Virus record (IMG/VR): IMGVR_UViG_3300032265_002872 | Location: 1 to 46,375 of that record | DNA length: 46,375 nucleotides | DNA from: a virus | Direction: 5' to 3' (one strand) | Shown: positions 24,237-46,375 of the stretch, piece by piece | How positions within the stretch are numbered: the first letter of the stretch is position 1 | How the letters are laid out: every line of letters begins with the position of its first letter | Notes under the pieces: generated by a model | The model's input: the letters and a program-made list of their open reading frames with translations, nothing else | Database searches by the model: none | Told to the model about the DNA's origin: nothing | Program-made: the position numbers and the translations under genes

Positions 24237-24587
24237 ATGGATGAAAGATTAGAGAAAGCTTTAGAGTTTTCAAATTTTAAATATACGGCTTACCTTGAAA
24301 AAAGGCGGCTCCAAGAAAAACTTAAATCAGACCTTTTACTTTATCACAACGGCGGTAAATTCTTTCTAGATAGAAATTTTCTTCTTTTCTTAAACCTAAT
24401 AGTACCAGAGGAAGGAACCGGGGCTGTTACCATACTCGATGATAAATTGACTCCTGTGATCATAGAAGACATCGCTAAATTCCAAAAAGAATCTATTGAT
24501 AGATATTTTTCTATAACCAAACAATATTATATTGATTTTGAGTCTCTAAAGAAAAAAAGGTCTGTAAAAAATCTAATTGATCTATGA
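24237..24587 (+). CDS. Unrecognised phage protein, 116 aa
   Basis: 116 residues, mainly helical, with a basic N-terminal helix (YLEKRRLQEKLKSDLLLY, about 20-37) and a central NGGKFFLDRNFLLFLNLIV strand region. No metal or nucleotide motif. It opens the plus-strand operon leading to the glycosyltransferase-like genes and overlaps the next start by ATGA. GGAG lies 8 bases before its ATG. I associate similar small proteins with T4-like aquatic phages but cannot name a function. Confidence 0.65.
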   Translation: MDERLEKALEFSNFKYTAYLEKRRLQEKLKSDLLLYHNGGKFFLDRNFLLFLNLIVPEEGTGAVTILDDKLTPVIIEDIAKFQKESIDRYFSITKQYYIDFESLKKKRSVKNLIDL

Positions 24588-25441
24588 AGAAAGGATGCCT
24601 CTTATTTGCCCATAACGGAAATATAGATTATGGATCTCAAGCAGTACTTGCCGCCGCTCTAGTAAGAAAATATCTCGATGTACCTGTTAGCCTAGTTTCC
24701 GACAAAGAAACCATAAACGATATTAATTCAAAATTTAAAACTCTACCATTTGATAATATAATAGAAATTGAAAAACCCAATAATATTAATCAAAGACGTC
24801 TATATGATCGTGAGAGTAAAGACTATAAGGTATTCAACTTTATAAATGGCAATAGGCATTCCGCATATGAGTTAACACCGTATGATAGGACTTTGGTCAT
24901 CGACACAGATTTTTTAGTATTCAGTGATAGTCTTTCAAAGTATTGGAACAGTGATGACTTTTTTATCACCCCAGGGATGCTATTGTTACAAGACGATGCG
25001 ACTAATCCTAAAGAGCACAAAGTAGGACCATACAGTATAGATATGGTATGGGCCACGAATATCATTTTTAGCAAAAATGAGGAAACAAAGATATTTTTTG
25101 ATCTTATCGAGTTTATCAAACAAGAATATTATTATTATTCAAATCTATACGAATTCCATCCCGGCCAATATAGGAATGATTTCGTATTCAGCATCGCTTG
25201 CCATATAATGAGCGGGCATGGACTAGATCCGTGGCATAAAGAGTTACCAGTTCCTATATTTTTCGATGACAGATGTGAAATATTAAAAATCAAAGACAGC
25301 GGAGATATACTTTTTTTAATAGAACTTCGAGACAAACATATATTAGCTAAATCCTTTCAGCAGGACGTACACATAATGAATAAATTGAGTCTACTAGATA
25401 ATCTTGATCAACTTTTAAAGCTGGCCAATTATGAAAGATAA
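24584..25441 (+). CDS. GT-A fold glycosyltransferase-like protein
   Basis: 285 residues. A Rossmann-like N-terminus (CLLFAHNGNIDYGSQAVLAA) leads to a YELTPYDRTLVIDTDFLVFS segment with the DxD motif Asp107-Thr-Asp109, the metal and sugar-nucleotide site of GT-A transferases such as GT8-like families. The next gene is a clear paralogue with DSD. Start overlaps the previous stop (ATGA) and its end overlaps the next gene by 11 bases. It would transfer a sugar from a nucleotide donor. Acceptor unknown: phage DNA, virion protein or a surface glycan. No membrane anchor. Confidence 0.78.
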   Translation: MKKGCLLFAHNGNIDYGSQAVLAAALVRKYLDVPVSLVSDKETINDINSKFKTLPFDNIIEIEKPNNINQRRLYDRESKDYKVFNFINGNRHSAYELTPYDRTLVIDTDFLVFSDSLSKYWNSDDFFITPGMLLLQDDATNPKEHKVGPYSIDMVWATNIIFSKNEETKIFFDLIEFIKQEYYYYSNLYEFHPGQYRNDFVFSIACHIMSGHGLDPWHKELPVPIFFDDRCEILKIKDSGDILFLIELRDKHILAKSFQQDVHIMNKLSLLDNLDQLLKLANYER

Positions 25442-26261
25442 AGGATATCTATTATTTGCCATAGACAGCAGTGAAGTAGACTATTCAACATTAGCCTATG
25501 CTTGTGCTCTTACAATTAAACTAACACAGCCAGATGGATATAACAACGTCACTGTTATTACAAATACTAAGAATAAATTTGATAATAAGATTAAAATTTT
25601 TGACGATATCATAGAATATACAGGTCCTATGGGGATGGATTGTAGGTCAAGGGCTTACGAGCTAAGTCCTTATCTAAGGACTGTTTTGCTTGATTCTGAT
25701 ATGCTATTTTTAAAACCGATGGATCATTATTGGAATCAAGTCCAACACCTCGACCTATTCATAACTTCTAGTCCTCAAAATTATCAAGGAAAATCCTTTA
25801 GTTACGGACACTATAGAAAAGTGTTCGTTGATTACGAGCTACCCGATGTTTACAATGCGTGGACATATTTTCGAAAGTCGCCGCAGACCGAAGAATTTTT
25901 TGAATTGGTTAAATTAATGACCGATAACCCGGAACCATTTATAAAAAAATTCCTACCTAGTCTCGGGCTTGATAATATACCGACAGATGAAGCATTTGCT
26001 CTATCTCTTCGTATACTAGGATTAGAAGATCAAGCAGTGTATCCCGAATGGGATTTTCCCAGGATCACCCATATGAAACCTCTAGTGCAGGGTTGGAAAG
26101 AATATCTTGTAGATTGGACTGAAAAAATAAGGGTGTCTGTAAATCCAAAAGGACAAATAAAACTAGGAGTATGGCAACAGACAGAATTGTTGCACTATGT
26201 TGATAAAAATTTTATTACACCCGATATTCTAAAAACACTAGAGGTTGCTTATGAGTCATGA
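25431..26261 (+). CDS. GT-A fold glycosyltransferase-like protein (paralogue)
   Basis: 276 residues. Shares with the preceding protein the opening GYLLFAIDSSEVDYSTLAYA, the YELSPYLRTVLLDSDMLFL stretch with DxD at Asp88-Ser-Asp90, and a later Asp-Glu-Ala-Phe (acid/base region) with Asp/Glu-rich surroundings. The DxD, together with Tyr-Glu-Leu-Ser-Pro just before it, marks a phage subfamily. Overlaps both neighbours by 11 bases. Tandem duplication followed by divergence is likely, so the two may add successive sugars. Confidence 0.78.
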   Translation: MKDKGYLLFAIDSSEVDYSTLAYACALTIKLTQPDGYNNVTVITNTKNKFDNKIKIFDDIIEYTGPMGMDCRSRAYELSPYLRTVLLDSDMLFLKPMDHYWNQVQHLDLFITSSPQNYQGKSFSYGHYRKVFVDYELPDVYNAWTYFRKSPQTEEFFELVKLMTDNPEPFIKKFLPSLGLDNIPTDEAFALSLRILGLEDQAVYPEWDFPRITHMKPLVQGWKEYLVDWTEKIRVSVNPKGQIKLGVWQQTELLHYVDKNFITPDILKTLEVAYES

Positions 26262-26808
26262 TTTTTATGTTTTATATGATCTAGAAACTAGTTTCGCTAC
26301 GGCAATCGGCGGTAGTCCGTTTGATGTCATTCCTGAAGGAATGGGCAACTGCTTGGCTAGAGAAAAAGACGGGTATGATTTCCTAACACATAAGAAAATA
26401 CTAAGAGATTATATCGTAATAGTAATTAACGGATACGCTGAATTTAAGTTCAGGAGTTCCAATTTAGAATTTCCCCGTAACATTACATCTAATCAGAGCT
26501 TGAGAGATCTTCATCATAGAGTAGTATTTTTTGATTACTTAGATATAAGATATACAGTCGATAATGACAGCATAATATTTAAATTTGACTGGGAAAATCT
26601 CGACGACAAATATAAATTTAAATTTGACTCTATGATCAATGAAAAAAATAAGTTGTTCAACTTGTATATAACGTGTTATAATGAACCAGATAAATTAATT
26701 TCAAAACACGAGATTGACCTATTGAAATTAAGTATAGATAAAATATATAAATTAGAGTATGCTGTTAACAAAAAAATCAGCATATGGGGAAATAGGAAAT
26801 ATGATTGA
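26251..26808 (+). CDS. Unrecognised phage protein, 185 aa
   Basis: 185 residues from the ATG at 26251; a TTG two codons upstream is also in frame but less likely. Beta-rich and aromatic-rich with several Asp/Lys-Phe strands (DYLDIRYTV, SIIFKFDWEN) and a helical C-terminal 50 residues. No DxD or nucleotide motif. It overlaps the glycosyltransferase-like genes on both sides, so it belongs to the same operon and may be an acceptor-binding partner. Function unknown. Confidence 0.6.
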   Translation: MSHDFYVLYDLETSFATAIGGSPFDVIPEGMGNCLAREKDGYDFLTHKKILRDYIVIVINGYAEFKFRSSNLEFPRNITSNQSLRDLHHRVVFFDYLDIRYTVDNDSIIFKFDWENLDDKYKFKFDSMINEKNKLFNLYITCYNEPDKLISKHEIDLLKLSIDKIYKLEYAVNKKISIWGNRKYD

Positions 26809-27706
26809 AAAATTAACCATATCAGAACTAGATTGCATCTTTATTAGTTATGATGAACCTAATGCGGAAAAACATTGGGTTGATCTATTAGACAAATGTA
26901 TGTGGGCCAAACGTGTCCACAGAGTTAAAGGGTCAAACGAATGTCATCAAGCGGCTGCGGAGTTAAGTGAAACTGATTGGTTTATCACTGTGGATGCCGA
27001 TAATATTGTTGATACTAGATTCTTTGACCAAGTTATAGATATACCCATAGGATCAAAAGCATTTAGTTGGCCAGGGGTAAATGCAATCAACGGACTTCGA
27101 TATGGCAACGGCAGTCTAAAAGTATGGAAGAAAGATTTTGTATTGGGAATGAAAACACACGAAGAGTCGGCTGATCCTAAGGGTCAGGTAGATTTTTGTT
27201 GGGAGGACGGTTATAGGCCTATGGTACATAGTTACTCAGTTACGTATCCCAATGCCAGTCCGTATCAAGCATGGCGAGCAGGTTTTCGAGAAGGTGTGAA
27301 GATGAGTCTAGTTGACGGAGTACTACCAAAGGATCCAATGCCTTCAAAATTATTTTGGCATAATCTGCATAGATTAAAAGCATGGTGTAGTATTGGTAGT
27401 CACATAGAAAATGGTCAGTGGGCTATATTAGGTGCCAGGCATGGATGCTGGAAAACCAACTGTACCGAATGGGATTACATAGATGTGAGAGATTTTGCCT
27501 ATCTCGATAACATCTGGAAAGAGGTTAAGAATCTCAATGTACAAGAAGCCATTATAGATTATGGGCGAAGATTAGAAAAAGATTTTGAATTCTCGGTTCC
27601 GGTGCTAGACGAACAAGTTAGTAGATACGTGGTAGAACTATTCCAAGATCAATATAATCAAGCTACACAGCAGATAGAATGGACCATGAGGCGCAACAGT
27701 GTTTGA
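26801..27706 (+). CDS. Glycosyltransferase family 2-like protein
   Basis: 301 residues from the ATG at 26801 (8-base overlap with the previous gene); a start at 26759 is in frame but would overlap far more. LDCIFISYDEPNAEKHW is the GT2-like first strand and nucleotide loop, followed by a DxD-type Asp65-Ala-Asp67 (ITVDADNIVD). The stretch WKKDFVLGM and a later WEDGYRPMVHSYSVT segment are in the acceptor half. A shorter paralogue follows. Sugar transfer to an unknown acceptor; the paired layout mirrors the GT pair just upstream. Confidence 0.75.
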   Translation: MIEKLTISELDCIFISYDEPNAEKHWVDLLDKCMWAKRVHRVKGSNECHQAAAELSETDWFITVDADNIVDTRFFDQVIDIPIGSKAFSWPGVNAINGLRYGNGSLKVWKKDFVLGMKTHEESADPKGQVDFCWEDGYRPMVHSYSVTYPNASPYQAWRAGFREGVKMSLVDGVLPKDPMPSKLFWHNLHRLKAWCSIGSHIENGQWAILGARHGCWKTNCTEWDYIDVRDFAYLDNIWKEVKNLNVQEAIIDYGRRLEKDFEFSVPVLDEQVSRYVVELFQDQYNQATQQIEWTMRRNSV

Positions 27707-28376
27707 TATAATATTCATATCTTATAATGAACCAAATGCCAATGATAATTGGAAGGCATTAGTATCTCGATTTCCCTATGCTAGACGTATACACGGAGTC
27801 AAAGGAATTCATACAGCACATAAAACAGCAGCTAAATTATTTGGGCTAACTGAAAAATTCTGGGTAGTAGATGGGGATACCCAGATAGAAGAGTCATTCA
27901 CATTTACTCCTCCTTACGAGCTATGGGATGATGCCGTTTATGTCTATCGTGCTCGCAATCCTGTTAACGACCTAGTGTACGGATATGGTGGTTTGAAATT
28001 ATTACCCAGGATTCAAACATCGATAATGAATGTGAATGCCACTGATATGAGTACCAGTATAAGTGAAACTTTCTTTGTCGTGAATGAAATTGCTAGTGTT
28101 ACCTGCTTTAATACCGATCCATTCAATACATGGAAATCAGCCTTTAGAGAGTGTGTAAAGTTAAGTTCTAAAATTATCGATAATCAAGTAGATTCCGAAA
28201 CTGAAGAAAGACTCGACGCTTGGTGTACTTTAGGAAAGGAACAACCATACGGGGATTGGTGTATTGATGGTGCTCAAAGAGGAAAAGAATACGGATTAAT
28301 AAATTCCAATAATCTAGATAAACTTAATAAGATAAATGATTTTGATTGGATCAAAAATCAATTTGAGAATAGGTAA
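27699..28376 (+). CDS. Glycosyltransferase family 2-like protein (paralogue), GTG start
   Basis: 225 residues starting at GTG 27699, an 8-base overlap (GTGTTTGA) with the previous stop. FDIIFISYNEPNANDNW and RRIHGVKGIHTAHKTAA repeat the pattern of the preceding protein (VHRVKGSNECHQAAA), and Asp58-Gly-Asp60 (VVDGDTQ) is the DxD motif. It also keeps Asp-Ala-Trp-Cys-x-x-Gly and Gly-x-Trp-x-x-x-Gly-Ala strings near the end, as does the longer copy. Last gene of the plus-strand GT operon, which meets a convergent gene directly. Confidence 0.75.
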   Translation: MFDIIFISYNEPNANDNWKALVSRFPYARRIHGVKGIHTAHKTAAKLFGLTEKFWVVDGDTQIEESFTFTPPYELWDDAVYVYRARNPVNDLVYGYGGLKLLPRIQTSIMNVNATDMSTSISETFFVVNEIASVTCFNTDPFNTWKSAFRECVKLSSKIIDNQVDSETEERLDAWCTLGKEQPYGDWCIDGAQRGKEYGLINSNNLDKLNKINDFDWIKNQFENR

Positions 28377-29317: not shown

Positions 29318-29362
29318 GATCCTTTATTTAGTCTAGTTTATTTTTAAGTTTTTATATGGTCA

Positions 29363-29370
29363 GTTAAATA
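29363..29370 (+). promoter_or_regulatory. T4-like late promoter motif, 6 bases before ATG
   Basis: GTTAAATA then CAAGCT and the ATG at 29377. Heads the plus-strand radical-SAM operon (29377-35715). Opposite it, CTAAATAA at 29331-29324 precedes the divergent 241-aa gene. Confidence 0.45.
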
Positions 29371-29376
29371 CAAGCT

Positions 29377-30342
29377 ATGAACATACCATGGCAAAAAATA
29401 ACGCAATTTGGTCAAAAAAATATGCTAACTCGTCCGCTATTTTCAACAAGTTGGATTTTGGGGAGATTTTGTAATTATAAATGTAGTTATTGTTGGCCAT
29501 ACGCCCGAAGCGATATTCAAGATTATCAACCGCTTGAAGTGTACAAGAACACCATAGACGAGATCAAGCGCCAAGCACGAACCAATAGATTTGACCAGTT
29601 CCATTGGTCTTTCAGCGGCGGGGAGCCGACTGCTTACAAACATCTTTTAGAGCTAATTAAACATTTAGATGAAAAAGAAAGCTCGTACCAAACTATCCAC
29701 ATGACTACTAATTTAAGTCCCGGAAGCAAATGGTGGAACACATGGTGTAACAATACTTCTTTACTACAACGCCGCAGTATTACCGCCAGCTTCCATGATG
29801 AGTTTGCCAAGGAGCAGGAGTTTAGTGAAAAATGTTTACAGTTGATGTATGAGCTAGTACACGTAACAATCAATCAAGTGATGGTTCCTGAAAAGTTCTA
29901 TGAATTGTATGAACGTTGTGAGCGTTTCCACAAACGTGGCATTAACGTAACTCTTAAACCGCAGAGCAATGATACTGCCAGTGCGATAGTAGAAGGTTAC
30001 AGCGATGATATGATACGAAAAATGCAAGAAGGGTTTCCACAGCAGGCCAACGGTGAAAATTTCTATCAAATATCTTTATTTGATTTAGATGGTAACGAAT
30101 ATCATTTTGATCAAGCTGAACGATTTAATGTGTTTGGATTTAATAAATTTAAAGGATGGAGTTGTAATAGTGGCTACCAAAGTGTTATAATAAGAGGTAA
30201 CGAAGTAAAACGTAGCTATAGCTGTCATGACGAACCGTTAGGCACTATAACTCAGGGTTTTGAACTATTCAGTAATACACAGAAATGTATTACTCCCATT
30301 TGTATCAGTTCGGCCGACAGCAAGATACCTAAGGAAAAATAA
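29377..30342 (+). CDS. Radical-SAM enzyme
   Basis: 321 residues. CxxxCxxC cluster motif at Cys32, Cys36 and Cys39 (CNYKCSYC), SAM-binding GGEPT at 81-85, then a partial TIM barrel. The C-terminal part holds further cysteines (WSCNSGY, YSCHDEP and CITPIC), suggesting an auxiliary-cluster (SPASM/twitch-like) extension as in peptide- or protein-modifying members. The opening SWILGRFCNYKCSYCWPY recurs in the enzymes at 33915 and 45622. The enzyme would make a 5'-deoxyadenosyl radical. First gene of an operon in which the next gene starts 2 bases after its stop. Confidence 0.9.
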   Translation: MNIPWQKITQFGQKNMLTRPLFSTSWILGRFCNYKCSYCWPYARSDIQDYQPLEVYKNTIDEIKRQARTNRFDQFHWSFSGGEPTAYKHLLELIKHLDEKESSYQTIHMTTNLSPGSKWWNTWCNNTSLLQRRSITASFHDEFAKEQEFSEKCLQLMYELVHVTINQVMVPEKFYELYERCERFHKRGINVTLKPQSNDTASAIVEGYSDDMIRKMQEGFPQQANGENFYQISLFDLDGNEYHFDQAERFNVFGFNKFKGWSCNSGYQSVIIRGNEVKRSYSCHDEPLGTITQGFELFSNTQKCITPICISSADSKIPKEK

Positions 30343-30344
30343 AG

Positions 30345-31706
30345 ATGATCAACGAGATTAATCATAATAAGTCATCTACGCTTTGTGTTCTACCATGGAT
30401 ACATGTAGCAACACGGCCGAATGGTGATGCTCGATTGTGCTGCGGGTCTAATGCCAGTCAAGCAACAAAGGGCATACTTGATGCCGGGCTTGTTAAAAAA
30501 GAAAACGGCGATCCTGCTAATTTTGGTAAAGAAACGTTAATGAGTGCGTTTAATAATGACTATATGAAAGACGTTCGCAAAACAATGATTAATGGACAGA
30601 TACCGTTGAGCTGTGCCAAATGCTTTGAGGAAGAAAACAACGGCATCACTAGTAAACGTGTTTGGGAAACCATGTATTGGGAACAACAAGGTATAGATTT
30701 AACAGACTTAATTGAACGGACCGAATCAGATGGAACTATTCCTCCTATTATCCGATATTTAGATTTGCGTTTAGGTCATACTTGTAATCTTAAATGCGTT
30801 ATGTGTAGCCCGCATGACAGCAGTAAATGGACCCAGGATCACAACAAACTAGTTTCTAAAACTAAAAGTCCTATAGTGCTTCAACAAATCAGCTGGAACT
30901 CAAAAGATTTTAATAACACATGGTACGAAAGACCTGAACTATGGGAAGAGATATTTGATCAAATACCCAACATCAAACAACTATACTTTGCGGGAGGTGA
31001 GCCTTTAATGATTAAAGAACACAGACGCTTCTTAGAAGAAATTGTACGTAGAGGTTATAACGATCAAATTACCGTTAGATATAATAGCAACGGCGTATTG
31101 ATCGATGATGAGATGATAGAACTGTGGAGTAAATTTAAAGAAATACGTTTTGCTTTTAGTATCGATGCTGTCACTGATCGAAATCATTATATACGATATC
31201 CCGTCAACTGGAAAGAAATTGAATCAGCATTAGACAAACTAGATAATACTCCAGACAACATCAAAGTAGGTATAGCGTGTGCTGTGCAAATCTTTAACGT
31301 CAAACACATTATCGATTTTGCGAAATGGAAGATAGGTAAGAACTATAAAAAAATCAATAGATTTAAATTTGCCGGTCACGAAGTCGGCGGTGGGATCATA
31401 AACATGCACATGTTGTATATACCTACATTCTTAAGTGCTAGGATATTACCAAAAGAAGAGAAAGAAAAGTTAGCCAAGGATTTAGTAGAGTTTAAACAAT
31501 GGTTATGGGACAATTATACGCAAGATGATAGCTTCTGGAAGATCAATCCCAATGGATGGAATCGTTGGGCTAGTATCTTAAAGTTTGTTCAAGCAGAGGA
31601 CCACAGTCATTTACTTCCAGACTTTCAAGAGTATGTTGCTAACTTAGATAACATCAGAAATACAAATGCTAAAACTATATTTCCAGAATTAAAAAATTTA
31701 CTATGA
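30345..31706 (+). CDS. Radical-SAM enzyme with N-terminal twitch-like domain
   Basis: 453 residues. An N-terminal cysteine set (Cys14, Cys32, Cys33, Cys90, Cys93; CVLPWIHVATRPNG and LCCG) forms a twitch-like auxiliary-cluster domain placed before the radical-SAM core, an order opposite to usual SPASM enzymes. The core has Cys147/151/154 (CNLKCVMC), FAGGEPL and a SIDA strand. A second protein of the same design lies at 41230-42546. Such enzymes often act on peptides or carry electrons through the second cluster. It overlaps the next gene by ATGA, tying it to a putative 2-oxoglutarate oxygenase. Confidence 0.9.
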   Translation: MINEINHNKSSTLCVLPWIHVATRPNGDARLCCGSNASQATKGILDAGLVKKENGDPANFGKETLMSAFNNDYMKDVRKTMINGQIPLSCAKCFEEENNGITSKRVWETMYWEQQGIDLTDLIERTESDGTIPPIIRYLDLRLGHTCNLKCVMCSPHDSSKWTQDHNKLVSKTKSPIVLQQISWNSKDFNNTWYERPELWEEIFDQIPNIKQLYFAGGEPLMIKEHRRFLEEIVRRGYNDQITVRYNSNGVLIDDEMIELWSKFKEIRFAFSIDAVTDRNHYIRYPVNWKEIESALDKLDNTPDNIKVGIACAVQIFNVKHIIDFAKWKIGKNYKKINRFKFAGHEVGGGIINMHMLYIPTFLSARILPKEEKEKLAKDLVEFKQWLWDNYTQDDSFWKINPNGWNRWASILKFVQAEDHSHLLPDFQEYVANLDNIRNTNAKTIFPELKNLL

Positions 31707-37934: not shown

Positions 37935-37952
37935 TTTGTTATCTACGCAGTA

Positions 37953-37960: not shown

Positions 37961-37967
37961 TTATATC

Positions 37968-38495: not shown

Positions 38496-39059
38496 CACTT
38501 CGCTAATAACTAGATGTATCCTAGGTTCCCAGCCACCGTTATAAACAAAATGGGGTTTAACAGTATTAATGTAATAGAAATGTCCATCGGCAGGAATATG
38601 ATAACAGCTAGCAGCCATAGCTCCTCCCCCTGTATATTCTCCTAACAAAGCAAACGGATTAGTTTCAAGTGCGAGATGATATCTCCTTTCCGTATCACTA
38701 TGGATGGTTAATCCGGTCTTGGGCATCAATCGCATATATCTAATACGACCAAATCTTGTATCTTGCTGTTTTGATAATTGATTTAAAATTGTCCGTGTGT
38801 AGGATGGTAGAAATGGGTTTATTTCAGTAAAGTCGGATTCTTTTCCTAAAATTTCACCTGTCTGTTTATCAATTAAACTGCCGTCGGCATCGAGCCACGG
38901 GTTTGCCGCATCGGGGCGAAAACTAACACCTATTTGATTTCCCGATGATTTTCTAACAAAGTCTTCAGGAGGCCAAGGATGGTATTCTAAAAGTTCATTT
39001 AAATCTTTTTGCGCTTGCTCCAAATCTACTGAGATGTTTATTTTTTCTATAAAATTCAT
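38487..39059 (-). CDS. Aspartyl/asparaginyl beta-hydroxylase-like oxygenase
   Basis: 190 residues from the ATG at 39059 (ATGA overlap with the PP-loop gene); an in-frame ATG at 39080 is less likely. AspH-type residues: His120-x-Asp122 (LTIHSDTERRYHLAL), distal His170 (TVKPHFVYNGG) and Arg180 (PRIHLVIS). The motif RYMRLMPKTGL before the iron site is typical of the family. Last gene of a minus-strand operon: twitch radical-SAM, B12-type radical-SAM, PP-loop ATPase and this hydroxylase, so the four may build one product. Confidence 0.82.
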   Translation of the reverse strand: MNFIEKINISVDLEQAQKDLNELLEYHPWPPEDFVRKSSGNQIGVSFRPDAANPWLDADGSLIDKQTGEILGKESDFTEINPFLPSYTRTILNQLSKQQDTRFGRIRYMRLMPKTGLTIHSDTERRYHLALETNPFALLGEYTGGGAMAASCYHIPADGHFYYINTVKPHFVYNGGWEPRIHLVISEVLT

Positions 39060-39748
39060 TCTAATCTTCCAAATGCCCATTGTCTTTCATCGCACCACCA
39101 ACACTTACGGCAATGCCCTCTAACTGTTTTGGGATCTTCGCAGCTTCTTGTTAGAGGAAATAATGATTCCAAAATGTTTTTTCCTTTATAAAGTTCTGCT
39201 ATATCTTTTTTATTAATTTCAAAGAAAGGCTTATACTCTATAAATTCTCTATCGTCTTTTGTAAAGTAGCGATAAGTTTCTTTTTTAACATGTTCACTAC
39301 GTTTTAATTCTACATCTTCTAATACCTTGTAATTAAAGTTTTCCTGTTCTTCCCTAGGCGGATTAGTTGTGATTCCAGAATATAGAATTTGAAATTTGCT
39401 ATGCTTAAAATTTTCATAATTTCTAATATGAAATTGGTCTTCTAGTTCGTTAGGAGTCCACGTATAACCATCGGGTGGATGATAAAAAATATGTTCTTTA
39501 AAAATATCGTTAACATCCAACAATTTCTTTATCTTACCTATAACTTCTAACGCAATAAAAGCAAATGGTCTTTTGTAATCAACTGTAATAGGTTGTATTG
39601 TTACCGGTATATTTTCATTTTTAATTTTTTCTGCTAGTAAATAACAAAGTACTGCGCTATCAGCCCCGCCGCTTATCCATATACCAATACTTGAAACATC
39701 CACTCCTAGCGGAGTTTTATTAGGAATAACTATATTAATTTTTTTCAT
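39056..39748 (-). CDS. PP-loop ATPase, QueC-like
   Basis: 230 residues, close to the normal QueC length. SGGADS at 26-31 is the PP-loop, and Cys203, 213, 216 and 219 (SCEDPKTVRGHCRKCWWCDE) form the QueC-type zinc site, spaced C-x9-C-x2-C-x2-C, followed by a Gln-Trp-Ala-Phe string. Only this pattern ties it to QueC; the middle is divergent. Overlaps the B12-type radical-SAM gene upstream by 14 bases and the hydroxylase by 4. It may activate a carboxylate as part of the same route, such as amide or nitrile formation. Confidence 0.75.
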   Translation of the reverse strand: MKKINIVIPNKTPLGVDVSSIGIWISGGADSAVLCYLLAEKIKNENIPVTIQPITVDYKRPFAFIALEVIGKIKKLLDVNDIFKEHIFYHPPDGYTWTPNELEDQFHIRNYENFKHSKFQILYSGITTNPPREEQENFNYKVLEDVELKRSEHVKKETYRYFTKDDREFIEYKPFFEINKKDIAELYKGKNILESLFPLTRSCEDPKTVRGHCRKCWWCDERQWAFGRLE

Positions 39749-41240
39749 TAATATTTTTTTCTAGCATCGCAATCAAATTTGGAAAGTATTCTTTCACAGG
39801 ATCTGTTATACTGTTACCTTTTCCGTATACAATCTGTTCTATTACAGGTTTTGGTTTTTTATCCATCTCGTCATTCATTTCTATAATGATTTCGTATGCA
39901 CGTTGAAAACTTAGTATATCAGTTCCGTCATTTTTAAACCAATATTCGTGTTTTTCCAAATCAGGAATACTATATCCATGTTTTTCGTAAGTTCGATCTA
40001 ATTCACTAGTTGGGTGGTTAGGGTATGTTCCTACAGGGTGAATCATTAATGGAAAATACCATACTCTATGAACAGGCGATTCGGGTCTCAAAAACCAATC
40101 AGCGGATGCTCTAACATCTGCATATGATTCTCCGGGCAAACCAACTATATATCCTGCGTTGACACTGATCTTATCTCCCCAAATTTTTTCAGCATCGTAT
40201 AGAGCCTGTTTGCGTTTCTCTTGACTCATTCCTTTTCCAATTAATCTAGCAGCACCTGGATGAAATGTCTCAATTCCAAAGAAACAACTAACCATTCCCA
40301 TATCTAAAAGCAACTGAGCCTGTTCTGGATTCATGGCCAGAACATCTAATCGGAGATAACAGCGGAACTTGGGCTTAAACGGTAATTGTTTAATTACTTC
40401 AACCATGTACTGTAATTTTTCGGTAGAATCGTTTACAGTATCGTCTGCTATATAATAATCTGTAATGCCCCAACGTTCATAATTTTCAAGTAATTCTTTA
40501 TATAAAGCATCTTTTCCTTTAATGTAACTTGCTATATCTTTTTTACCTATTAAAGGAAAAGCACAATATAAACATTTAAATCGGCAACCACGAGCTGCTT
40601 CTAATGTTAATATCTCATCGCTACGTATTTGATCGTACTCTGTATATCTTGTAAAACTATCAACCCAGCCCCAGTCTCTACTTTCAGCATGAGAATCGTG
40701 ATTAATTAACTTATTCCAAATTCTTCTAGGTTGTTCTAAGAAATCTAAAATTTCAGTTTCCGCATAGCCCGACATAAAATAGTCTGCGGGAAAATCAGGG
40801 TACCAGTCAATTTTTGCTCCACCCAATAAAATCTTAGTTTTTGGATTGTATTTTTTAACTACATCTACCCAAATTTGTCCTTGCCCTAGCGCAACAAATT
40901 CTGTAAATACCTTGGGTATTGTTTTTTCTTTAGGACGATACTGATCTGATACCATATCTCTTAGACTAGCAGATAAATTTACCGATTGTTCATTTTGTTT
41001 ATATTTTCTATAGGGCCACCAAGTTGTGCTAAATCCAACAAATTTTGTGTCTGGTCCGATAGATAATGATAGAATTTTATCCCAAGTATCTATGGTTAGG
41101 GCTGCAGAAAAGTCTATCACTAAAACAGTATATCCGCGTTCTCTTAAATGTGTAGCTATACGATGTGCTCCGTAGCCCCTAGTCCAATGAGGATATGTAG
41201 GTGTTTCAGTTAATATAATAGCATCAAAATTATTGGTCAT
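39735..41240 (-). CDS. Radical-SAM enzyme with B12-binding-like N-terminal domain
   Basis: 501 residues. The N-terminal about 170 residues form a Rossmann-like cobalamin-binding-type domain (GAHRIATHLRERGYTVLVID, ILLGGAKIDWYP); the classical DxHxxG is absent, as in many members of this class. The radical-SAM core starts at Cys219/223/226 (CRFKCLYC), with ADDTVND, FGIETFHPGA and AGYIVGLPGESYAD as later barrel strands. B12-type enzymes often methylate unreactive carbons or rearrange rings. It is flanked in overlap by the twitch-type radical-SAM gene and a PP-loop gene. Confidence 0.87.
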   Translation of the reverse strand: MTNNFDAIILTETPTYPHWTRGYGAHRIATHLRERGYTVLVIDFSAALTIDTWDKILSLSIGPDTKFVGFSTTWWPYRKYKQNEQSVNLSASLRDMVSDQYRPKEKTIPKVFTEFVALGQGQIWVDVVKKYNPKTKILLGGAKIDWYPDFPADYFMSGYAETEILDFLEQPRRIWNKLINHDSHAESRDWGWVDSFTRYTEYDQIRSDEILTLEAARGCRFKCLYCAFPLIGKKDIASYIKGKDALYKELLENYERWGITDYYIADDTVNDSTEKLQYMVEVIKQLPFKPKFRCYLRLDVLAMNPEQAQLLLDMGMVSCFFGIETFHPGAARLIGKGMSQEKRKQALYDAEKIWGDKISVNAGYIVGLPGESYADVRASADWFLRPESPVHRVWYFPLMIHPVGTYPNHPTSELDRTYEKHGYSIPDLEKHEYWFKNDGTDILSFQRAYEIIIEMNDEMDKKPKPVIEQIVYGKGNSITDPVKEYFPNLIAMLEKNINEKN

Positions 41241-42546
41241 TTTTTCCTTCTTTTAGGTGTATAAGCTCTGGGATAATTTCATAAGTATTTTCGTTTCTGA
41301 TTTCATCTATTTGATCAGTTATTTGAAAAAATCTATTCAAGGCATTAAGATTCCTAGGTTTCTTAAGCTCATATATCATCTGTGTAAATTTTGATGATAT
41401 ATCAGTATTGTTTTCTAAATTAAACTTAGTTATCCATGTTTCTAATTTAATTATCGTTTCTGCTCTAAATTTATCATCTAAAATATGTACATGATAATGG
41501 CTAGGTTGTTCTAATAGGTTAAGATAGAAATTATTATAGTGGTGTTTTTGTTTTAGAACTCCTATGTCTTTTAGGTATTCTATTATCTCAGGTAACCTAA
41601 ATATATTCATAGCCCCTACTGTAATTCCTGGTCTAAGAATAATATTATCTAGTTTAGATAGTTCTATCAGATTATTTTCAACTTTTGACCAAACTGTTCC
41701 GGATCTAATTAGCTCTGCTCTAGGTCCTATCTCATCGATGCTCGGCCAAACTTCTAGTCTTCCAAAATTCCATTGCTTCCAATAATCAATTACATTCTTT
41801 CCGCCGTATGCTAATGTAGATACATTAGTGTTATAGCTTAATCTTACATCAAATCTTTTATGCTTAACTAATAGTTCTAGGATCTGCCAGTGCTCGGGCA
41901 TGAGTAACGGTTCACCTCCAGCAAAGTAAATTTTTTCAACAACACCAATTTGATCTTCTAAAAAATTATAGTTGGTTCCTTCTTCTATACCATCGATGCT
42001 AGTAACTTTTTCATCTTCTATTTTCCACCCTAGTTTCTTTGCATCCGGAACCCATGCTGAACTATATCTAGGGCCACAGCTACGACATTTAAAGTTACAA
42101 AGATTACTGAAACGAAAATCCCAATAACGTAAATTCATCTCTTTAACAGATCCATCATCCGAAGTTATGATAGGAATAGATTTAATAACATGAGGAAATT
42201 CTCTATTGTGATGTACCCTTCCACTTTCGCCTGTTACTTTTTCTTTATCAAAACACTTGTGGCATATTTCCGGTTCTCTTCCGCTCATCATTTCCTTGCG
42301 GAGGATCTTCATATTTGTACTATTCCAAATTTCTTCAATAGGTTGTGTATTAAGATCTCCGGCAAAGTAATTGTATGTAGATGTTAAACAGCAGGGCACA
42401 ACTTTACCGTTTGGCTCAAAGTTTAGATGCATCCACGGGACGGCGCATACTGTTGGACTCACTTGAGGTTTAATAGGATCGTAGCCTATTCGATATCTTG
42501 TATAGATTTTTTTAATTTTATGTATCCATTTTTTAAATTTAGGCAT
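41230..42546 (-). CDS. Radical-SAM enzyme with N-terminal twitch-like domain (paralogue)
   Basis: 438 residues. Cys34, 52, 53, 95 and 98 (VCAVPWMHLNFEPNG, PCCL, CHKC) build the same N-terminal auxiliary-cluster domain as in the enzyme at 30345. The core has Cys150/154/157 (CNFKCRSC), FAGGEPLLMPEHW, LSYNTNV and WPSIDEIG. These two proteins are clear paralogues, sharing MKILRKEMMSGREPEICHKC-like and FAGGEPL segments. First gene of a minus-strand operon with a late motif 5 bases before the ATG. 11-base overlap with the next gene. Confidence 0.9.
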   Translation of the reverse strand: MPKFKKWIHKIKKIYTRYRIGYDPIKPQVSPTVCAVPWMHLNFEPNGKVVPCCLTSTYNYFAGDLNTQPIEEIWNSTNMKILRKEMMSGREPEICHKCFDKEKVTGESGRVHHNREFPHVIKSIPIITSDDGSVKEMNLRYWDFRFSNLCNFKCRSCGPRYSSAWVPDAKKLGWKIEDEKVTSIDGIEEGTNYNFLEDQIGVVEKIYFAGGEPLLMPEHWQILELLVKHKRFDVRLSYNTNVSTLAYGGKNVIDYWKQWNFGRLEVWPSIDEIGPRAELIRSGTVWSKVENNLIELSKLDNIILRPGITVGAMNIFRLPEIIEYLKDIGVLKQKHHYNNFYLNLLEQPSHYHVHILDDKFRAETIIKLETWITKFNLENNTDISSKFTQMIYELKKPRNLNALNRFFQITDQIDEIRNENTYEIIPELIHLKEGKNDQ

Positions 42547-42551
42547 GCTGG

Positions 42552-42559
42552 TATTTACA
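42552..42559 (-). promoter_or_regulatory. T4-like late promoter motif, 5 bases before ATG
   Basis: TGTAAATA then CCAGC and the ATG at 42546 on the minus strand, in a 73-base divergent gap. Confidence 0.45.
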
Positions 42560-42606
42560 TCTATAAAGTTTCAAATCAATATATCTTGATCTATACACTA
42601 TTATAC

Positions 42607-42614
42607 ATTAAATA
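42607..42614 (+). promoter_or_regulatory. T4-like late promoter motif, 5 bases before ATG
   Basis: ATTAAATA then CCATC and the ATG at 42620 on the plus strand, opposite the motif at 42552-42559. Confidence 0.45.
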
Positions 42615-42619
42615 CCATC

Positions 42620-43600
42620 ATGAATCAACAATATGCTATATTTCATTTTAAGTTGGCAAATGGTGAGCTTTTGAAATTACGTTACAAATTAGCTCCTACC
42701 AGTTTACGAGATAGGTGGATCAATATCGTGAATCGTAGACGCAATACGAAAGATAAGCTAGAATTAAAAATTAGTAATAAGACGACAAAAGATCTAGGAT
42801 ACCTAATGAGGACTATCAATGAAATAATTGAAAAAATAAACGAATACTATGATAAAAAATTGCCAATTTTTAAAAACGTTTCAGAGATGGGCGGTGAAAC
42901 ATTAAACCATCTCCATGAAGAATTTGAATTGTATGGAGAAAGACATCAGCAAGCATTTCCAGTAAAAGTCGGCGAAGTTCGAAATAATTCAATATGGCCG
43001 GGTTTATATTTTAGAGAAGATTTTCATAACGCTTGGTTGAAATTAAATGAGTATATTCATATCATAGAAACAGCCGCCATGCCTAGTCATTTTCCAAATT
43101 TCAGTTGTTTGGTACAATATGAACCTTTTGAAAGGGGTGATCTGTTAAATCCAGAAGATAAATTATTTTTAGATACAGACTTTAGTTGGGGACAATTATA
43201 TCTCGGGTATAACACTTTAGGTAAAGACTGGAAAGACGCAGCAGCTGATAACGATCTGCGCTTAATCGCTAATAATCAAGTTAAAGTTCAAGAATCCTTC
43301 TGTTCAGAATCCTGGTTAAATTTTAGCGACCATGTTTCTTTTCATAGACGGGAAGAGATGAAATTTTGGGCTTGGTACAAAAATTTATCAGGTGATTTAA
43401 AATCCAAAATACCTATAGATGATATGTCTCAATTAGCATTAGGTCGGTACTATCTAGGAATGATAATGTTTGATCAAGCTTTTTTAAAATTCCATCCTAG
43501 ATTAGAAGACTGGCTCGTTCCCTACAGCGAACTAAGAAGGCGATGGAATTTAGAAGTATTTTCTCAAATTGTTGAAGCGGTTGATATAGAAATAATATGA
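42620..43600 (+). CDS. Unrecognised phage protein, 326 aa
   Basis: 326 residues. N-terminal beta hairpins (YAIFHFKLANGELLKLRYK), a helical region with LNHLHEEFELYGERHQQ at about 94-110, and a C-terminal part with AWYKNLSGDLKSKIP and many aromatic residues. The His/Glu-rich helix could bind metal, but no known pattern is complete. ATGA overlap with the hydroxylase gene following it and a late motif just ahead. Similar proteins seem to accompany radical-SAM and hydroxylase genes in related phages, in my recollection; function unknown. Confidence 0.6.
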   Translation: MNQQYAIFHFKLANGELLKLRYKLAPTSLRDRWINIVNRRRNTKDKLELKISNKTTKDLGYLMRTINEIIEKINEYYDKKLPIFKNVSEMGGETLNHLHEEFELYGERHQQAFPVKVGEVRNNSIWPGLYFREDFHNAWLKLNEYIHIIETAAMPSHFPNFSCLVQYEPFERGDLLNPEDKLFLDTDFSWGQLYLGYNTLGKDWKDAAADNDLRLIANNQVKVQESFCSESWLNFSDHVSFHRREEMKFWAWYKNLSGDLKSKIPIDDMSQLALGRYYLGMIMFDQAFLKFHPRLEDWLVPYSELRRRWNLEVFSQIVEAVDIEII

Positions 43601-44277
43601 AAGAAATTCTAGAATCTTTTATAAGAGAGAGTTTACAAAATCAATGGTCTGCTACTCCACCTATACCAAATAATTTATATCAGTCCAATTGGCCCTGGTT
43701 TCCTTTAGAATTTTCAGCAAACTTTAAAAAAATGCATCGAGAATGTATTGACAATGATCATTTGTTTGTGGGACATAGACAAAAAGATCGGCAGTTTAGT
43801 TACAATCACGAAGGGTGGGCTGCTATAACATTACATGGAATTAATTCGGAGGCCACAGAAAATTACGAACAATATGGTTACAAAACTTTAGAAGAAGCCA
43901 ATTACCATTGGACAGACGCCTGCGAAATCTTTCCTACATGTACAGAATTTATTAAATCTCTCAATTATGAAAGATATGAACGTGTTCGTATTATGAAACT
44001 AGCAGCAGGCGGCTATATAATGCCGCATGTTGACGGCGACGGAAGGATATTTGGTCCTTTAAATATTGCGGTCAATAATCCAGATAACTGTAATTTCTAT
44101 TTTCGCAAGTGGGGATGTGTGCCTTTTGAACAAGGGAAAGGTTTCATCCTGGATATTGGCAACGAACACGTTGTGTGGAATCAATCTAATGAGCATCGAT
44201 ATCATTTCATCGTACATGGATCTGGTAATCAAAAATTAAAACAATATGCCGAGAAGAGATTTTTAAAAAATGACTAA
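43597..44277 (+). CDS. Aspartyl/asparaginyl beta-hydroxylase-like oxygenase
   Basis: 226 residues. AspH signature: YIMPHVDGDGRIFGPLNIAV with His144 and Asp146, VVWNQSNEHRYHFIVHG with the distal His191 just before it and Arg201. It starts in an ATGA overlap with the preceding unknown gene and ends in an 8-base overlap with the next, so it is embedded in an operon that leads into another radical-SAM gene. Third AspH-like protein in the window; differs from the others in its 120-residue N-terminal part. Confidence 0.8.
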   Translation: MKEILESFIRESLQNQWSATPPIPNNLYQSNWPWFPLEFSANFKKMHRECIDNDHLFVGHRQKDRQFSYNHEGWAAITLHGINSEATENYEQYGYKTLEEANYHWTDACEIFPTCTEFIKSLNYERYERVRIMKLAAGGYIMPHVDGDGRIFGPLNIAVNNPDNCNFYFRKWGCVPFEQGKGFILDIGNEHVVWNQSNEHRYHFIVHGSGNQKLKQYAEKRFLKND

Positions 44278-45625
44278 AATTGCTTTTGGAATTTACAATC
44301 AACGAGATCGTATCAAAAATACTAAAATGTATCTCAAGGCTAAGGGAGCCAGTCTTTTCTATTTGGAAAGACTCAGCAACTGCCAGAAGGCTCCCTTAAG
44401 AATCATATGCCAAGATCAAATACATGAAATATTAAATCAAGCGTCTATTGAAGACTATGAGTACTGTGTTGTCCTTGCTGCTGGTTGTCAGCTACGCAAT
44501 TTTAATTTTATCAATGAGATTGAGCAATTTATTTCCGGAAATAAATTTGGGTTTGCCGGTCATCCACTTTGCAAACCAGGGCAATGGCTAGAACTACATC
44601 ATCAATTTTTTATTATCAATGTAAAAGCCTGGGTCGAAGTAGGTATGCCCGAATATGGAAATTGGGAAAGATCTCCTAAGATGTTACCTGTGATAGAGCG
44701 CAGTACAGAAAACTTCCACCATGACTATACTCCCCTATGGATTAGGCCTACTGGAGCGGTAATTGAACAATTGGGAGCCGGACAGGGATGGAAGTTAGCA
44801 TCTGCCTTTATGAACGGAGGCTGGCCTATTATTACTTTAACAGAAAATATTCGTCTCAGTAAATTCTATATCTATCCCGAAGATAATACATCTCGATTTT
44901 TAGACAGTATAGAAACCTTAACTCCATTCCCAGAACAAAACTGGAATCAAGATAAATGGATTAATGATGGGTTATGCGTTCGCAGTCAAATTTGGTTATT
45001 CAATTCCGAAACTATGAAAATTTATAATAACGGAGTGTACGATCTAGTTATAAACACCGCTAGTGGTTTTAAATTGTTTGATTTATTTAAATTCCCCCAA
45101 AGATTATCCTCTGACGCAAAAATATTGATATACGATTTTAATCCAATAGCTCTTAGATGGTATAAACATCTACATGAATGGAGAGACACTGATTTGTTGT
45201 TATGTATACGAAATTTTCCAGAAAGAGATCATTTTACATGGATCGGGCATCATGAATCAGCATATTCCGAAGATAAAGGATTCCAAAATGGTCTAGAGGA
45301 GATATGGAAGCATTTTGTAAATAAAGATACATTTATTAGTTACTGGCAGGAATTTAAACAGAGAGCCGTACAATTTTTAGAAGTAGACTTATATAGGGAT
45401 GCTACCCCTTTATTAGATGTTATACAAGAACATAAAAAAGTTTGGATGAATTTAACAAATATATTCAGTACAGATGCCGGACAGATGATATTTGGCCATG
45501 ACCAATGTCATGCTCATCAACAAAAAATATTATCTCAACTGTATATTATAAATCCAGATATCGAAGTAACATTATATGATGTATGGAATAGGACACGATG
45601 TGGTCCTATTAAAACTATATTATGA
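44270..45625 (+). CDS. Unrecognised large protein, 451 aa, possibly two-domain transferase
   Basis: 451 residues. The N-terminal about 200 look like a nucleotide-sugar-transferase-like or Rossmann domain (EYCVVLAAGCQLRNFNF, FGFAGHPLCKPGQW) without a clear DxD motif. The C-terminal half contains KILIYDFNPIALRWYKHLHEW at about 285-305, which recalls the strand-helix of SAM- or nucleotide-binding folds, and ends with a Cys-rich NRTRCGPIKT tail. No family can be named with confidence. Overlaps the hydroxylase before it (8 bases) and the radical-SAM gene after it (ATGA). Confidence 0.55.
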   Translation: MTKIAFGIYNQRDRIKNTKMYLKAKGASLFYLERLSNCQKAPLRIICQDQIHEILNQASIEDYEYCVVLAAGCQLRNFNFINEIEQFISGNKFGFAGHPLCKPGQWLELHHQFFIINVKAWVEVGMPEYGNWERSPKMLPVIERSTENFHHDYTPLWIRPTGAVIEQLGAGQGWKLASAFMNGGWPIITLTENIRLSKFYIYPEDNTSRFLDSIETLTPFPEQNWNQDKWINDGLCVRSQIWLFNSETMKIYNNGVYDLVINTASGFKLFDLFKFPQRLSSDAKILIYDFNPIALRWYKHLHEWRDTDLLLCIRNFPERDHFTWIGHHESAYSEDKGFQNGLEEIWKHFVNKDTFISYWQEFKQRAVQFLEVDLYRDATPLLDVIQEHKKVWMNLTNIFSTDAGQMIFGHDQCHAHQQKILSQLYIINPDIEVTLYDVWNRTRCGPIKTIL

Positions 45626-46375
45626 CAAAAAAATTAATTGCTATCACACAAGACCCTAAAGTTATGCAACTAACTTGGGTCATTAATAATATATGTACAA
45701 ATGCCTGTAGTTACTGTCCTAAAGGGCTACATGACGGGAAAAATCATCATTATGAATGGAGTAATGCCAAAAAATTTGTTAATGAGCTGATGGAAAGGCA
45801 TAAAAAAATAAACATTAGTATCGCCGGAGGAGAACCTACACTTAGTCCACACCTACCTGAATTAGTTAAACTGTTTCATGATAAAGGGCATACAGTCACA
45901 GTAACCACTAACGGTGCTAGAAGTCCTCGTTACTATGAAGAGATCAGTCCGTACATAAATGGAATTAGTTTTAGTTTTCATCCTAGTTTTGAAGATACCA
46001 ATTTTAAAGAAAAAGTCAGAGCAGCAAACAAATATTCAAATACTTCAGTTCGTGTCATGATGGACACTCGTTACTGGGACAGGTGTGTGGAAATTTATCA
46101 ATACTATGTTAAACAAGCCGATGTTAGTGTCGAGGCTGTAAGATTACAAGATTGGGGGGTAGGACAAACATTAGGAAGAGAATATACCACTGAGCAAGAT
46201 CAATGGATATTAGACAATCCCCACATTTCTAAAAATATAGATATTAATACCGTAATTAAATTTATAAAACGTATAAAATTTAAGTTACCTGTCTTAATGG
46301 GATGCAAATATCACTGGGATGATGGAACGACTAGTCAACAAAACGCTATAGATATTATTAATTCGGGATTAAACG
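45622..46375 (+). CDS. Radical-SAM enzyme, truncated by the window end
   Basis: 251 codons visible, with no stop before the window edge. CTNACSYC gives Cys25/29/32, GGEPT lies at 69-73, followed by VTTNGARS and FSFHPSFEDTN strands of the barrel. The opening TWVINNICTNACSYC is of the same type as the enzymes at 29377 and 33915, so this is the third member of that subfamily. The start overlaps the previous stop by ATGA. The C-terminal cysteine-rich part is not in view. Confidence 0.88.
   Translation, partial: MTKKLIAITQDPKVMQLTWVINNICTNACSYCPKGLHDGKNHHYEWSNAKKFVNELMERHKKINISIAGGEPTLSPHLPELVKLFHDKGHTVTVTTNGARSPRYYEEISPYINGISFSFHPSFEDTNFKEKVRAANKYSNTSVRVMMDTRYWDRCVEIYQYYVKQADVSVEAVRLQDWGVGQTLGREYTTEQDQWILDNPHISKNIDINTVIKFIKRIKFKLPVLMGCKYHWDDGTTSQQNAIDIINSGLN

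Follow-up and report, generated by a model that had tools for sequence, protein, structure and literature searches.

A radical-SAM-rich gene island behind the tail-fibre genes of a freshwater phage, with a core shared by Bdellovibrionota chromosomes

We analyzed a 46,375-nucleotide stretch of DNA (here called the window) from a freshwater virus of bacteria, in which an island of ~22 kb (positions 24237 to 46375) lies directly downstream of tail-tip (fibre) genes. Hundreds of related virus fragments, as well as bacterial chromosomes, carry the core genes of the island, and we therefore conclude that a real biosynthetic pathway, so far unnamed, stands behind it. This pathway probably yields a chemical decoration, either for the tip of the tail or for the surface of the cell. 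Our preferred explanation, held with somewhat less than even confidence, is an unusual decoration of sugar or amino acid type that is attached by glycosyltransferases, most likely to the neighboring tail fibre; modification of the host envelope is its main rival. Coordinates below are those of the window, and genes lie on the plus strand unless marked as minus.

Gene content of the island

In a scan of the window, the radical-SAM family PF04055 matched above its cut-off in seven open reading frames, starting at 29377, 30345, 32822, 33915, 39735 (minus), 41230 (minus), and 45622. The CX3CX2C motif is intact in all seven proteins, which bears out the count of seven radical-SAM enzymes in an earlier note made from the DNA letters. 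The island also encodes a desaturase, a protein with a methyltransferase fold, a pair of QueC-like PP-loop proteins, four glycosyltransferase-like proteins with DxD motifs, and five 2-oxoglutarate (2OG) oxygenases, of which three are firm and two probable. Adjacent genes overlap by 4 to 17 bases, rather than by at most 14 as first noted, and some neighbors abut with 1 to 2 bases. The island is low in G+C, the content changing from ~43% to ~35% at 24 kb, and no Rfam match was found. The label "T4-like" is provisional: the window itself carries no hallmark gene, and Portal_T4 was matched (E ~1e-110) in 3 of 19 related contigs, which are among the longest (the three largest tested, bar one).

Two A-type proteins of the Fe-S_biosyn family (starting at 19638, minus, and at 20235; PF01521, 72.9 and 57.6 bits) and an IscU-like protein (19954, minus) are encoded between 19638 and 20693, and they likely supply Fe-S clusters to the radical enzymes. 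The phage IscU is up to 82% identical to IscU proteins in the class of genome G048 (Gammaproteobacteria). Bdellovibrionota were rejected as its source, as only 1 of 144 genomes gave a match, with 64% identity.

Tail-fibre genes and the adjoining glycosyltransferase-like genes

Two tail-fibre-like proteins of one family, encoded at 20720 to 22660 (with a DYN...YGxG...HQ domain) and at 23077 to 24183, are the candidate acceptors. The first is homologous to fibres in the viral contigs L217, L218, L219, and L221 and to a 308-residue protein in L109. The relative in L219 matches gp360 of phage PA5oct, which is annotated as detected by ESI-MS/MS and as close to a long tail fibre gene; judged by sequence similarity, a member of the PA5oct virion proteome is thus related to this fibre family.

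The fibre genes are followed by a gene for a 116-residue protein (24237 to 24587), a position that it keeps in all copies of the block, and then by GT24584 (24584 to 25441; GT-A-like, DTD), its paralog GT25431 (25431 to 26261; GT-A-like, DSD), a 187-residue protein (26245 to 26808), GT26759 (26759 to 27706; GT2/GT-A-like, DAD), and GT27 (27699 to 28376; GT2/GT-A-like, DGD). Syntenic homologs of GT24584 occur in L217, L218, L219, L221, and L109 and partly in L151. The 187-residue protein, which has a counterpart with 32% identity in L217, marks a variable position "x" that is occupied elsewhere by open reading frames of 163 to 461 residues without a scored match. GT26759 is linked to rSAM1 (see below) in phages and bacteria, an HMM of its family matching in 37 loci; GT27 adjoins rSAM1 in several phage loci and has bacterial homologs. 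None of the four glycosyltransferase-like proteins matched a Pfam family. The best Foldseek matches of the GT26759 AlphaFold model (pLDDT 88.6) were mostly GT-A enzymes with low TM-scores of ~0.3. The DxD motifs and this weak fold match are consistent with the four GT-A/GT2-like proteins of the earlier note being glycosyltransferases, an assignment that we treat as putative.

The order fibre-24237-GT24584-GT25431-x-GT26759 is shared by the window and four further viral contigs, with identities of ~30 to 68% across contigs, and the block continues into the radical-SAM genes. For L067, a fibre gene was predicted upstream from the block order, sought there, and found to be present. A second fibre type with an RRGT/VGDG N terminus lies inside the cluster in several contigs, and two of three such proteins scanned gave weak PHROG tail-fibre matches. 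The same fibre-24237-GT-GT-x-GT order was also seen next to rSAM1 in a Bdellovibrionales MAG.

A portable core of four genes

The core genes are rSAM1 (29377 to 30342; PF04055, 48 to 50 bits), TWI (30345 to 31706), MT (32233 to 32829), and rSAM3 (32822 to 33922). rSAM1 has more than 550 viral relatives, and a PDB profile search with it returned generic radical-SAM matches only. TWI, which served as the query of one search for related viral loci, combines an N-terminal twitch/SPASM part with a radical-SAM domain and scored 387 bits against NF033640 (cut-off 170). MT carries an invariant N-T-S-C-E-H set in alignment A1, and its AlphaFold model (pLDDT 91) has a class I methyltransferase fold, in agreement with the methyltransferase-like protein noted before. 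MtNAS, a nicotianamine synthase-like enzyme, was its top Foldseek match, yet many class I methyltransferases score alike, and a PDB profile search with the MT alignment gave no significant match. rSAM3, the best hit in 72 loci, falls just below the PF04055 cut-off when scanned alone (28.2 versus 29.5), although it was above it in the window scan.

Among 33 long viral loci chosen by rSAM1 alone, MT was present in 31, rSAM3 in 31, and TWI in 25; the number of radical-SAM matches per related contig ranged from 2 to 19. We define the portable core as rSAM1, TWI, MT, and rSAM3, together with the GT26/27 family. The earlier note had named a lack of joint conservation in related phages and inactive core motifs as findings that would refute its proposal; neither applies, since the genes occur jointly across numerous viral contigs and the core motifs are intact.

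The core in Bdellovibrionota chromosomes

Orthologs of rSAM1 with ~50% identity to the phage protein occur in chromosomes of Bdellovibrionota, the phylum of predatory bacteria. Within one class, MT was found in 13 of 15 genomes with rSAM1 and in 16 of 129 genomes without it (p = 5e-9), even where the two genes lie on different contigs. This co-occurrence, being independent of physical linkage, supports a joint pathway. A hot spot that gathers unrelated auxiliary genes, with no joint pathway at all, would fit the low G+C of the island and an accessory content and gene order that differ between phages, but the conservation of the core in the rSAM1-selected loci and the co-occurrence of rSAM1 with MT in bacteria have already weakened this reading, which we regard as very improbable. 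The proposal of a complete pathway is partly supported: linkage and co-occurrence favor a joint pathway, but completeness is not supported, as the contig ends within the island and the accessory content differs from phage to phage.

One chromosome (G042) has an island of ~50 kb, flanked by tuf and nusG-rplK, in which most of these gene families are represented. The Bdellovibrionota islands (L204/L207/L208, L211, L201, and L106) share the rSAM1, TWI, rSAM3, MT, and GT26/27 families with the phages, and some also encode B12-radical-SAM, AspH, desaturase, and PLP-type proteins. The bacterial TWI proteins tested are, like 30345 and 41230, far above the NF033640 cut-off, which provides a subfamily name only. 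Unlike these shared features, the bacterial rSAM1 proteins form a clade separate from those of the phages. UDPG_MGDP_dh, PMT_2, Asn_synthase, and Acyl_transf_3 genes are neighbors of the bacterial core and suit sugar chemistry.

An origin of the bacterial islands as prophage or tailocin was rejected, as Phage_sheath_1 was absent from all 12 bacterial genomes checked and the G042 island has the chromosomal position given above. As most Bdellovibrionota core loci also showed no fibre gene, the pathway in these bacteria operates independently of a virion, which counts against our preferred explanation. Two MAGs, L111 (Acidimicrobiaceae) and L114 (Gammaproteobacteria), were excluded as bacterial evidence: L114 encodes a ThyX with 67% identity to the phage family, and either MAG sequence may be a phage contig that was binned wrongly.

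The occurrence of the core in bacterial loci with no fibre gene nearby also argues against a RiPP-like scheme of direct radical chemistry on the fibre or on a peptide, in which SPASM/twitch enzymes would cross-link or methylate, AspH proteins would hydroxylate Asp/Asn, and glycosyltransferases would add sugars. Peptide-maturase radical-SAM families are among the many weak matches, AspH-family proteins are present, and the island adjoins fibre genes, all in favor of such a reading, but the surroundings of rSAM1, TWI, and MT yielded no conserved precursor-like small open reading frame. Those small frames that are shared were, by eye, antisense, tRNA-like, or an H1-like protein, in a search that very short or distant precursors could escape. 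We consider this explanation improbable.

Accessory enzymes

Between TWI and MT, a 2OG-Fe(II) oxygenase-like protein with an HTD motif is encoded (31703 to 32236; PF03171, 19.5 bits, below the cut-off of 23), and a probable 2OG-Fe(II) oxygenase recognized by an HID motif only, with no family match, follows at 34996 to 35715. Three AspH-family proteins passed the PF05118 (Asp_Arg_Hydrox) cut-off of 22.6 with HID, HSD, and HVD motifs: 37968 to 38495 (AspH/LpxO family, 79.3 bits), 38487 to 39080 (minus; 26.8 bits, best hit in 24 loci), and 43597 to 44277 (38.6 bits). The three AspH-like enzymes proposed earlier are thereby confirmed, and of the five 2OG oxygenases these three are firm while 31703 and 34996 are probable.

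rSAM4 (33915 to 34994; PF04055, 41 bits), with an extra C-terminal Cys cluster, is the best hit in 62 loci and has 14 matches above 50% identity. A search of viral contigs with its sequence alone returned nothing. The protein at 39735 to 41240 (minus; PF04055, 59.9 bits) has five close relatives. Its B12-type domain, claimed before, scored 17.6 versus a Pfam cut-off of 32.1, whereas the NCBIfam models that it fits best belong to B12-radical-SAM families, with every score below cut-off; we retain it as a B12-type radical-SAM protein on this basis. TWI2 (41230 to 42546, minus) is a second twitch radical-SAM protein (NF033640, 364 bits), and rSAM7 (45622 to 46375; PF04055, 52.9 bits) is cut by the contig end, its C terminus lying outside. 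Prokaryotic viperin (NF038283) was not reached by any protein (at most 52.6 bits versus 180), and no island enzyme attained a curated NCBIfam function cut-off except that of the unassigned subfamily NF033640.

Three proteins are less well placed. U37 (37295 to 37921, minus) looks GNAT-like by eye, is the best hit in 12 loci, and is also found beside a desaturase in a bacterial island; U42 (42620 to 43600) has weak relatives in 4 loci; and U44 (44270 to 45625), with an N terminus that looks GT-A-like by eye and no Pfam match, has weak relatives in 9 loci.

Both QueC-like PP-loop ATPases of the earlier note hold at the family level (PF06508, cut-off 22): one (35666 to 36514, minus; SGGLES and a QueC-like C-terminal Cys motif) scored 34.8 bits, the other (39056 to 39748, minus; SGGADS and C-terminal Cys; alignment A3; best hit in 45 loci) 33.0 bits. 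Neither the PP-loop alignment nor the PLP alignment had a significant match in PDB profile searches. These scores, with weak QueE-like matches of several radical-SAM proteins, would fit a small diffusible molecule or a QueC/QueE-like DNA or tRNA modification. Both proteins, however, failed the QueC equivalog TIGR00364 (25.8 and 20.3 bits versus 150.3), no FolE or QueD match was found in the scanned island proteins, and the glycosyltransferases are bound to fibre genes, so that we give this reading the least weight of all.

More weight, though still on the unlikely side, belongs to a modification of the host envelope, in which an unusual sugar or lipid group would be placed on O-antigen or lipid A and block superinfection. 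The 37968 protein is nearest to LpxO and OlsC, the desaturase (36511 to 37293, minus; PF00487, 45.9 bits) passed the FA_desaturase cut-off as expected from the earlier note and is a membrane protein of the fatty acid desaturase family, and the B12-radical-SAM matches include lipid-pathway families. An NDP-sugar dehydrogenase on a related contig and the polysaccharide-type neighborhoods of the sheath-free bacterial counterparts point the same way, and the glycosyltransferases of pelagimyophages have been read in this sense (PMC7029224). On the other hand, 37968 scored 52.1 bits against the LpxO model NF033391 (cut-off 500), other equivalog cut-offs were missed as well, and the gene order that ties the glycosyltransferase block to the fibre gene is strictly kept across large divergence.

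A possible route to a decorated tail fibre

Decoration of the fibre, the reading that we prefer, would place the island in the host-recognition (tail-fibre) region of a freshwater phage related to T4, as the enzyme part of that region. rSAM1, TWI, rSAM3, MT, the PP-loop ligases, and the AspH-type oxygenases may build an unusual sugar- or amino-acid-like unit, to which a PLP-type enzyme, also encoded by relatives, and the NDP-sugar dehydrogenase could contribute. The DxD glycosyltransferases directly behind the fibre genes would attach this unit, most likely to 20720 and 23077, and the decorated fibre would alter host binding by the phage tip; the phage IscU and A-type proteins would provide the Fe-S clusters. 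Among the substrates considered before (virion adhesin, host envelope, or a small molecule), the conserved fibre-glycosyltransferase order and the polysaccharide-type bacterial neighborhoods point towards the first two, with a glycan-type decoration as the probable form.

Bdellovibrionota and these phages both attack Gram-negative cells. It is conceivable, if rather unlikely, that a large lineage of aquatic T4-like phages and Bdellovibrionota make a new class of modified glycan or amino acid sugar with 5 to more than 10 radical-SAM enzymes and thereby equip the adhesin or surface that makes first contact with the outer membrane of the victim. Should the product prove to be a new surface decoration, it would bear on phage host recognition and possibly on bacterial predation, and would offer new radical chemistry.

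Relation to known phage gene clusters

The island DNA had no match among 50,697 phage records, and the rSAM1, TWI, MT, 23077, GT25431, GT26759, and 24237-homolog proteins had none there or matches of 21 to 25% identity only. Radical-SAM genes in T4-like phages (2017) and their host-recognition clusters (2020) have been reported; no earlier description was found of the core cassette, the fibre-glycosyltransferase synteny, or the Bdellovibrionota counterpart. The T4-like environmental genome TARA_ERS488813_N000010 holds 12 radical-SAM genes and an A-type Fe-S carrier (PMC5332604, 2017), which the consulted part of that source gives as a count and reads as Fe-S metabolism, making no mention of a cassette, of synteny, or of a counterpart in bacteria. 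Radical-SAM-rich islands of aquatic T4-like phages had been counted but not explained; with a portable core now defined, placed behind virion fibre genes, and found MT-linked in bacterial chromosomes, the question becomes testable.

The closest likeness is to the host recognition cluster of pelagimyophages (Zaragoza-Solas et al., 2020; PMC7029224), a variable island located between VrlC and gp14 in T4-like aquatic phages, where tail fibres are combined with glycosyltransferases, radical-SAM cassettes, and a UDP-glucose 6-dehydrogenase. There, radical-SAM genes are added cassettes, which the freshwater group of that study is said to lack, whereas here they dominate and the core is common to Bdellovibrionota; by description, the two are set apart. 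T4-like tail-fibre regions are known to be variable (PMC7029224), and neighborhood alone can mislead. Features of the cluster type in the window are the fibre genes directly upstream, as in four other contigs, and the four DxD glycosyltransferase-like genes with their weakly confirmed fold.

Enzyme content of the island

In a PF04055 scan of the window DNA, seven radical-SAM proteins of the 22-kb island (24237-46375) exceeded the Pfam threshold; all carry CX3CX2C and one is of the B12 type. The final radical-SAM gene is truncated by the end of the record, a 46-kb virus fragment. Two PP-loop proteins of the island score above the Pfam QueC cut-off. Also encoded are one FA_desaturase and MT (gene at 32233), a protein with a confidently predicted class I methyltransferase fold. 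The radical-SAM, B12-type, PP-loop, desaturase and methyltransferase entries of the earlier note, which had described a dense set of iron-dependent modifying enzymes, are thus borne out. Its five oxygenases stand in part: three PF05118 hydroxylases exceed the cut-off, whereas the other two are weaker candidates. Neighbouring genes overlap mostly by 4-17 bases. G+C, about 43% up to 24 kb of the window, drops there to 35%. Far from the island lies another FA_desaturase gene (1504-2214, 53.8 bits), and a gene at 5566-6459, amid tail-region genes, matches a PHROG nuclease family (129 bits) and encodes an N-terminal signal-like stretch.

Conservation in viral contigs

An alignment search with the radical-SAM protein rSAM1 (29377) found relatives encoded in at least 554 stretches among 600 listed. 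The 33 kept rSAM1 loci of at least 14 kb, selected regardless of other genes, contained MT in 31, the radical-SAM gene rSAM3 (32822) in 31 and TWI (30345) in 25, so that these genes are conserved together in related phage contigs, as the earlier note's joint pathway implied. TWI itself had 142 viral relatives; in the best 80 of these plus five loci with close relatives of 39735, best-hit matches were found for rSAM1 in 65 loci, MT in 78, rSAM3 in 72 and rSAM4 (33915) in 62, the rSAM3 and rSAM4 labels including other radical-SAM paralogues and only 14 rSAM4 matches exceeding 50% identity. Whole contigs carried 2-15 PF04055 matches (26 contigs) or 7-19 (six further contigs), and a T4-type portal was found in three of the longest.

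A second PP-loop set recurs in related loci, as does a 285-aa protein that resembles fold-type I PLP enzymes in its S-x-S-K-G motif. Other recurring families are kinase-like or additional oxygenase-like, these last names being given by eye because Pfam gave no match. Also by eye, six phage loci encode an amidinotransferase-like protein (family c43; L035:9515-10684 and relatives; no Pfam match), and a flavin-dependent tryptophan-halogenase-like protein (family c47) occupies the left flank of the radical-SAM cluster in L016, L019, L026, L027 and L060. At L037:589-1938, eleven consecutive tRNA genes lie upstream of the radical-SAM cluster. A stretch of ~110 bases is conserved immediately upstream of rSAM1 in L016, L021, L039, L043, L056, L059, L061 and L074; on the minus strand it terminates in GTAGGTTCGAATCCTACCGACCACACC, resembling a class II tRNA with a long variable arm; ARAGORN found no tRNA in the loci scanned, nor did Rfam in five. 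A possible covarying stem, GGCnnn-GTCTTAGAC-nnnGCC, was seen by eye.

Fibre-like genes and probable glycosyltransferases

The tail-fibre-like proteins 20720 and 23077 share a DYN...YGxG...HQ domain with fibres of other contigs. The upstream parts of four of five fetched related contigs had the same order: large fibre-like proteins, one or two 20720/23077-family proteins, the 116-aa protein 24237, GT24584, GT25431, a variable gene and GT26759, followed by radical-SAM genes or GT27 (27699). The block runs on into GT27, rSAM1 and MT in L218 and L219; the fifth stretch (L220) is too short for this region and carries other oxygenase and radical-SAM genes. Because the order predicted a fibre gene in one of the four (L067/G189), we searched for it there and found it. 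Pseudomonas phage PA5oct has a relative of the domain whose annotation records its detection by ESI-MS/MS and which lies close to a long tail fibre gene; matches to this phage group show 30-43% identity over 20-59% of the query. In other contigs a different fibre type, with weak PHROG tail matches in two of three scanned, lies inside the enzyme cluster.

The four GT proteins contain DxD motifs typical of GT-A glycosyltransferases, and the AlphaFold model of 26759 (pLDDT 88.6) matched mainly glycosyltransferases in the PDB. As none of the four matched a Pfam family and the TM-scores of this model were near 0.3, we regard them as probable glycosyltransferases.

Bacterial counterparts

Scanning bacterial genomes with the rSAM1 alignment yielded 22 loci, mostly in Bdellovibrionota MAGs (45-55% identity). 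Of these loci, 19 also have TWI-family genes, 17 have rSAM3 and 10 have GT26/27-family genes. Among 144 genomes of one class, rSAM1 occurred in 15 and MT in 29, and 13 of the 15 rSAM1 carriers had both (Fisher p = 5e-9, for related and hence non-independent genomes, many of them incomplete MAGs). Since the two genes often lie on separate contigs, their co-occurrence points to common function over common transfer. One island of about 50 kb (G042), flanked by tuf and nusG-rplK, combines GT26, GT27, rSAM1, TWI, MT, rSAM3/4 and B12-radical-SAM genes. Genes of the AspH, PLP and desaturase types are also present there, along with those for an NDP-sugar dehydrogenase and a PMT_2 protein. Phage sheath was found in none of 12 core-carrying Bdellovibrionota genomes. 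In a Bdellovibrionales MAG (L109), the fibre-24237-GT-GT-x-GT order adjoins rSAM1; judged by eye, the contig also bears rnhB-, trmD-, rimM- and pheST-like genes. Because the rSAM1 tree separates phage from bacterial genes with full support, exchange between them, in either direction, is judged to be old.

The Bdellovibrionota islands repeatedly encode small proteins whose N-termini are Tat-like, with RRxxLK (L207:12238-12636, L211:8835-9308, L204:431-1018, L201:8941-9576, L212:1758-2405). These are possibly partners or substrates that are exported; by eye, the last two resemble methyltransferase folds.

Proposed function and host

The kind of region is already known: Nishimura et al. (2017; PMC5332604) noted an A-type carrier alongside 12 radical-SAM genes in one T4-like marine genome, and the pelagimyophage host recognition cluster (Zaragoza-Solas et al. 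2020; PMC7029224) unites fibres, glycosyltransferases and radical-SAM cassettes. Open-licence PMC texts yielded nothing on this combination beyond these two, and novelty appears to lie in the conserved core, the fibre-glycosyltransferase synteny and the counterpart in Bdellovibrionota.

The island is best read as a decoration pathway. Its radical-SAM enzymes, together with MT, the PP-loop ligases and the oxygenases, would build an unusual group of sugar or amino-acid type, which the glycosyltransferases would couple to an acceptor, most likely the fibre. Glycan chemistry is favoured because the bacterial neighbours are NDP-sugar dehydrogenase, asparagine synthase, acyltransferase and PMT_2. 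In the phages, gene order speaks for the fibre as the acceptor; modification of the host envelope, the published view for pelagimyophage glycosyltransferases (PMC7029224), is nearly as likely. The phage-encoded IscU and A-type proteins (genes at 19638..20693) fit a need for Fe-S clusters. The IscU is near the Gammaproteobacteria type, and together these proteins suggest a gamma- or betaproteobacterial host, not Bdellovibrionota.
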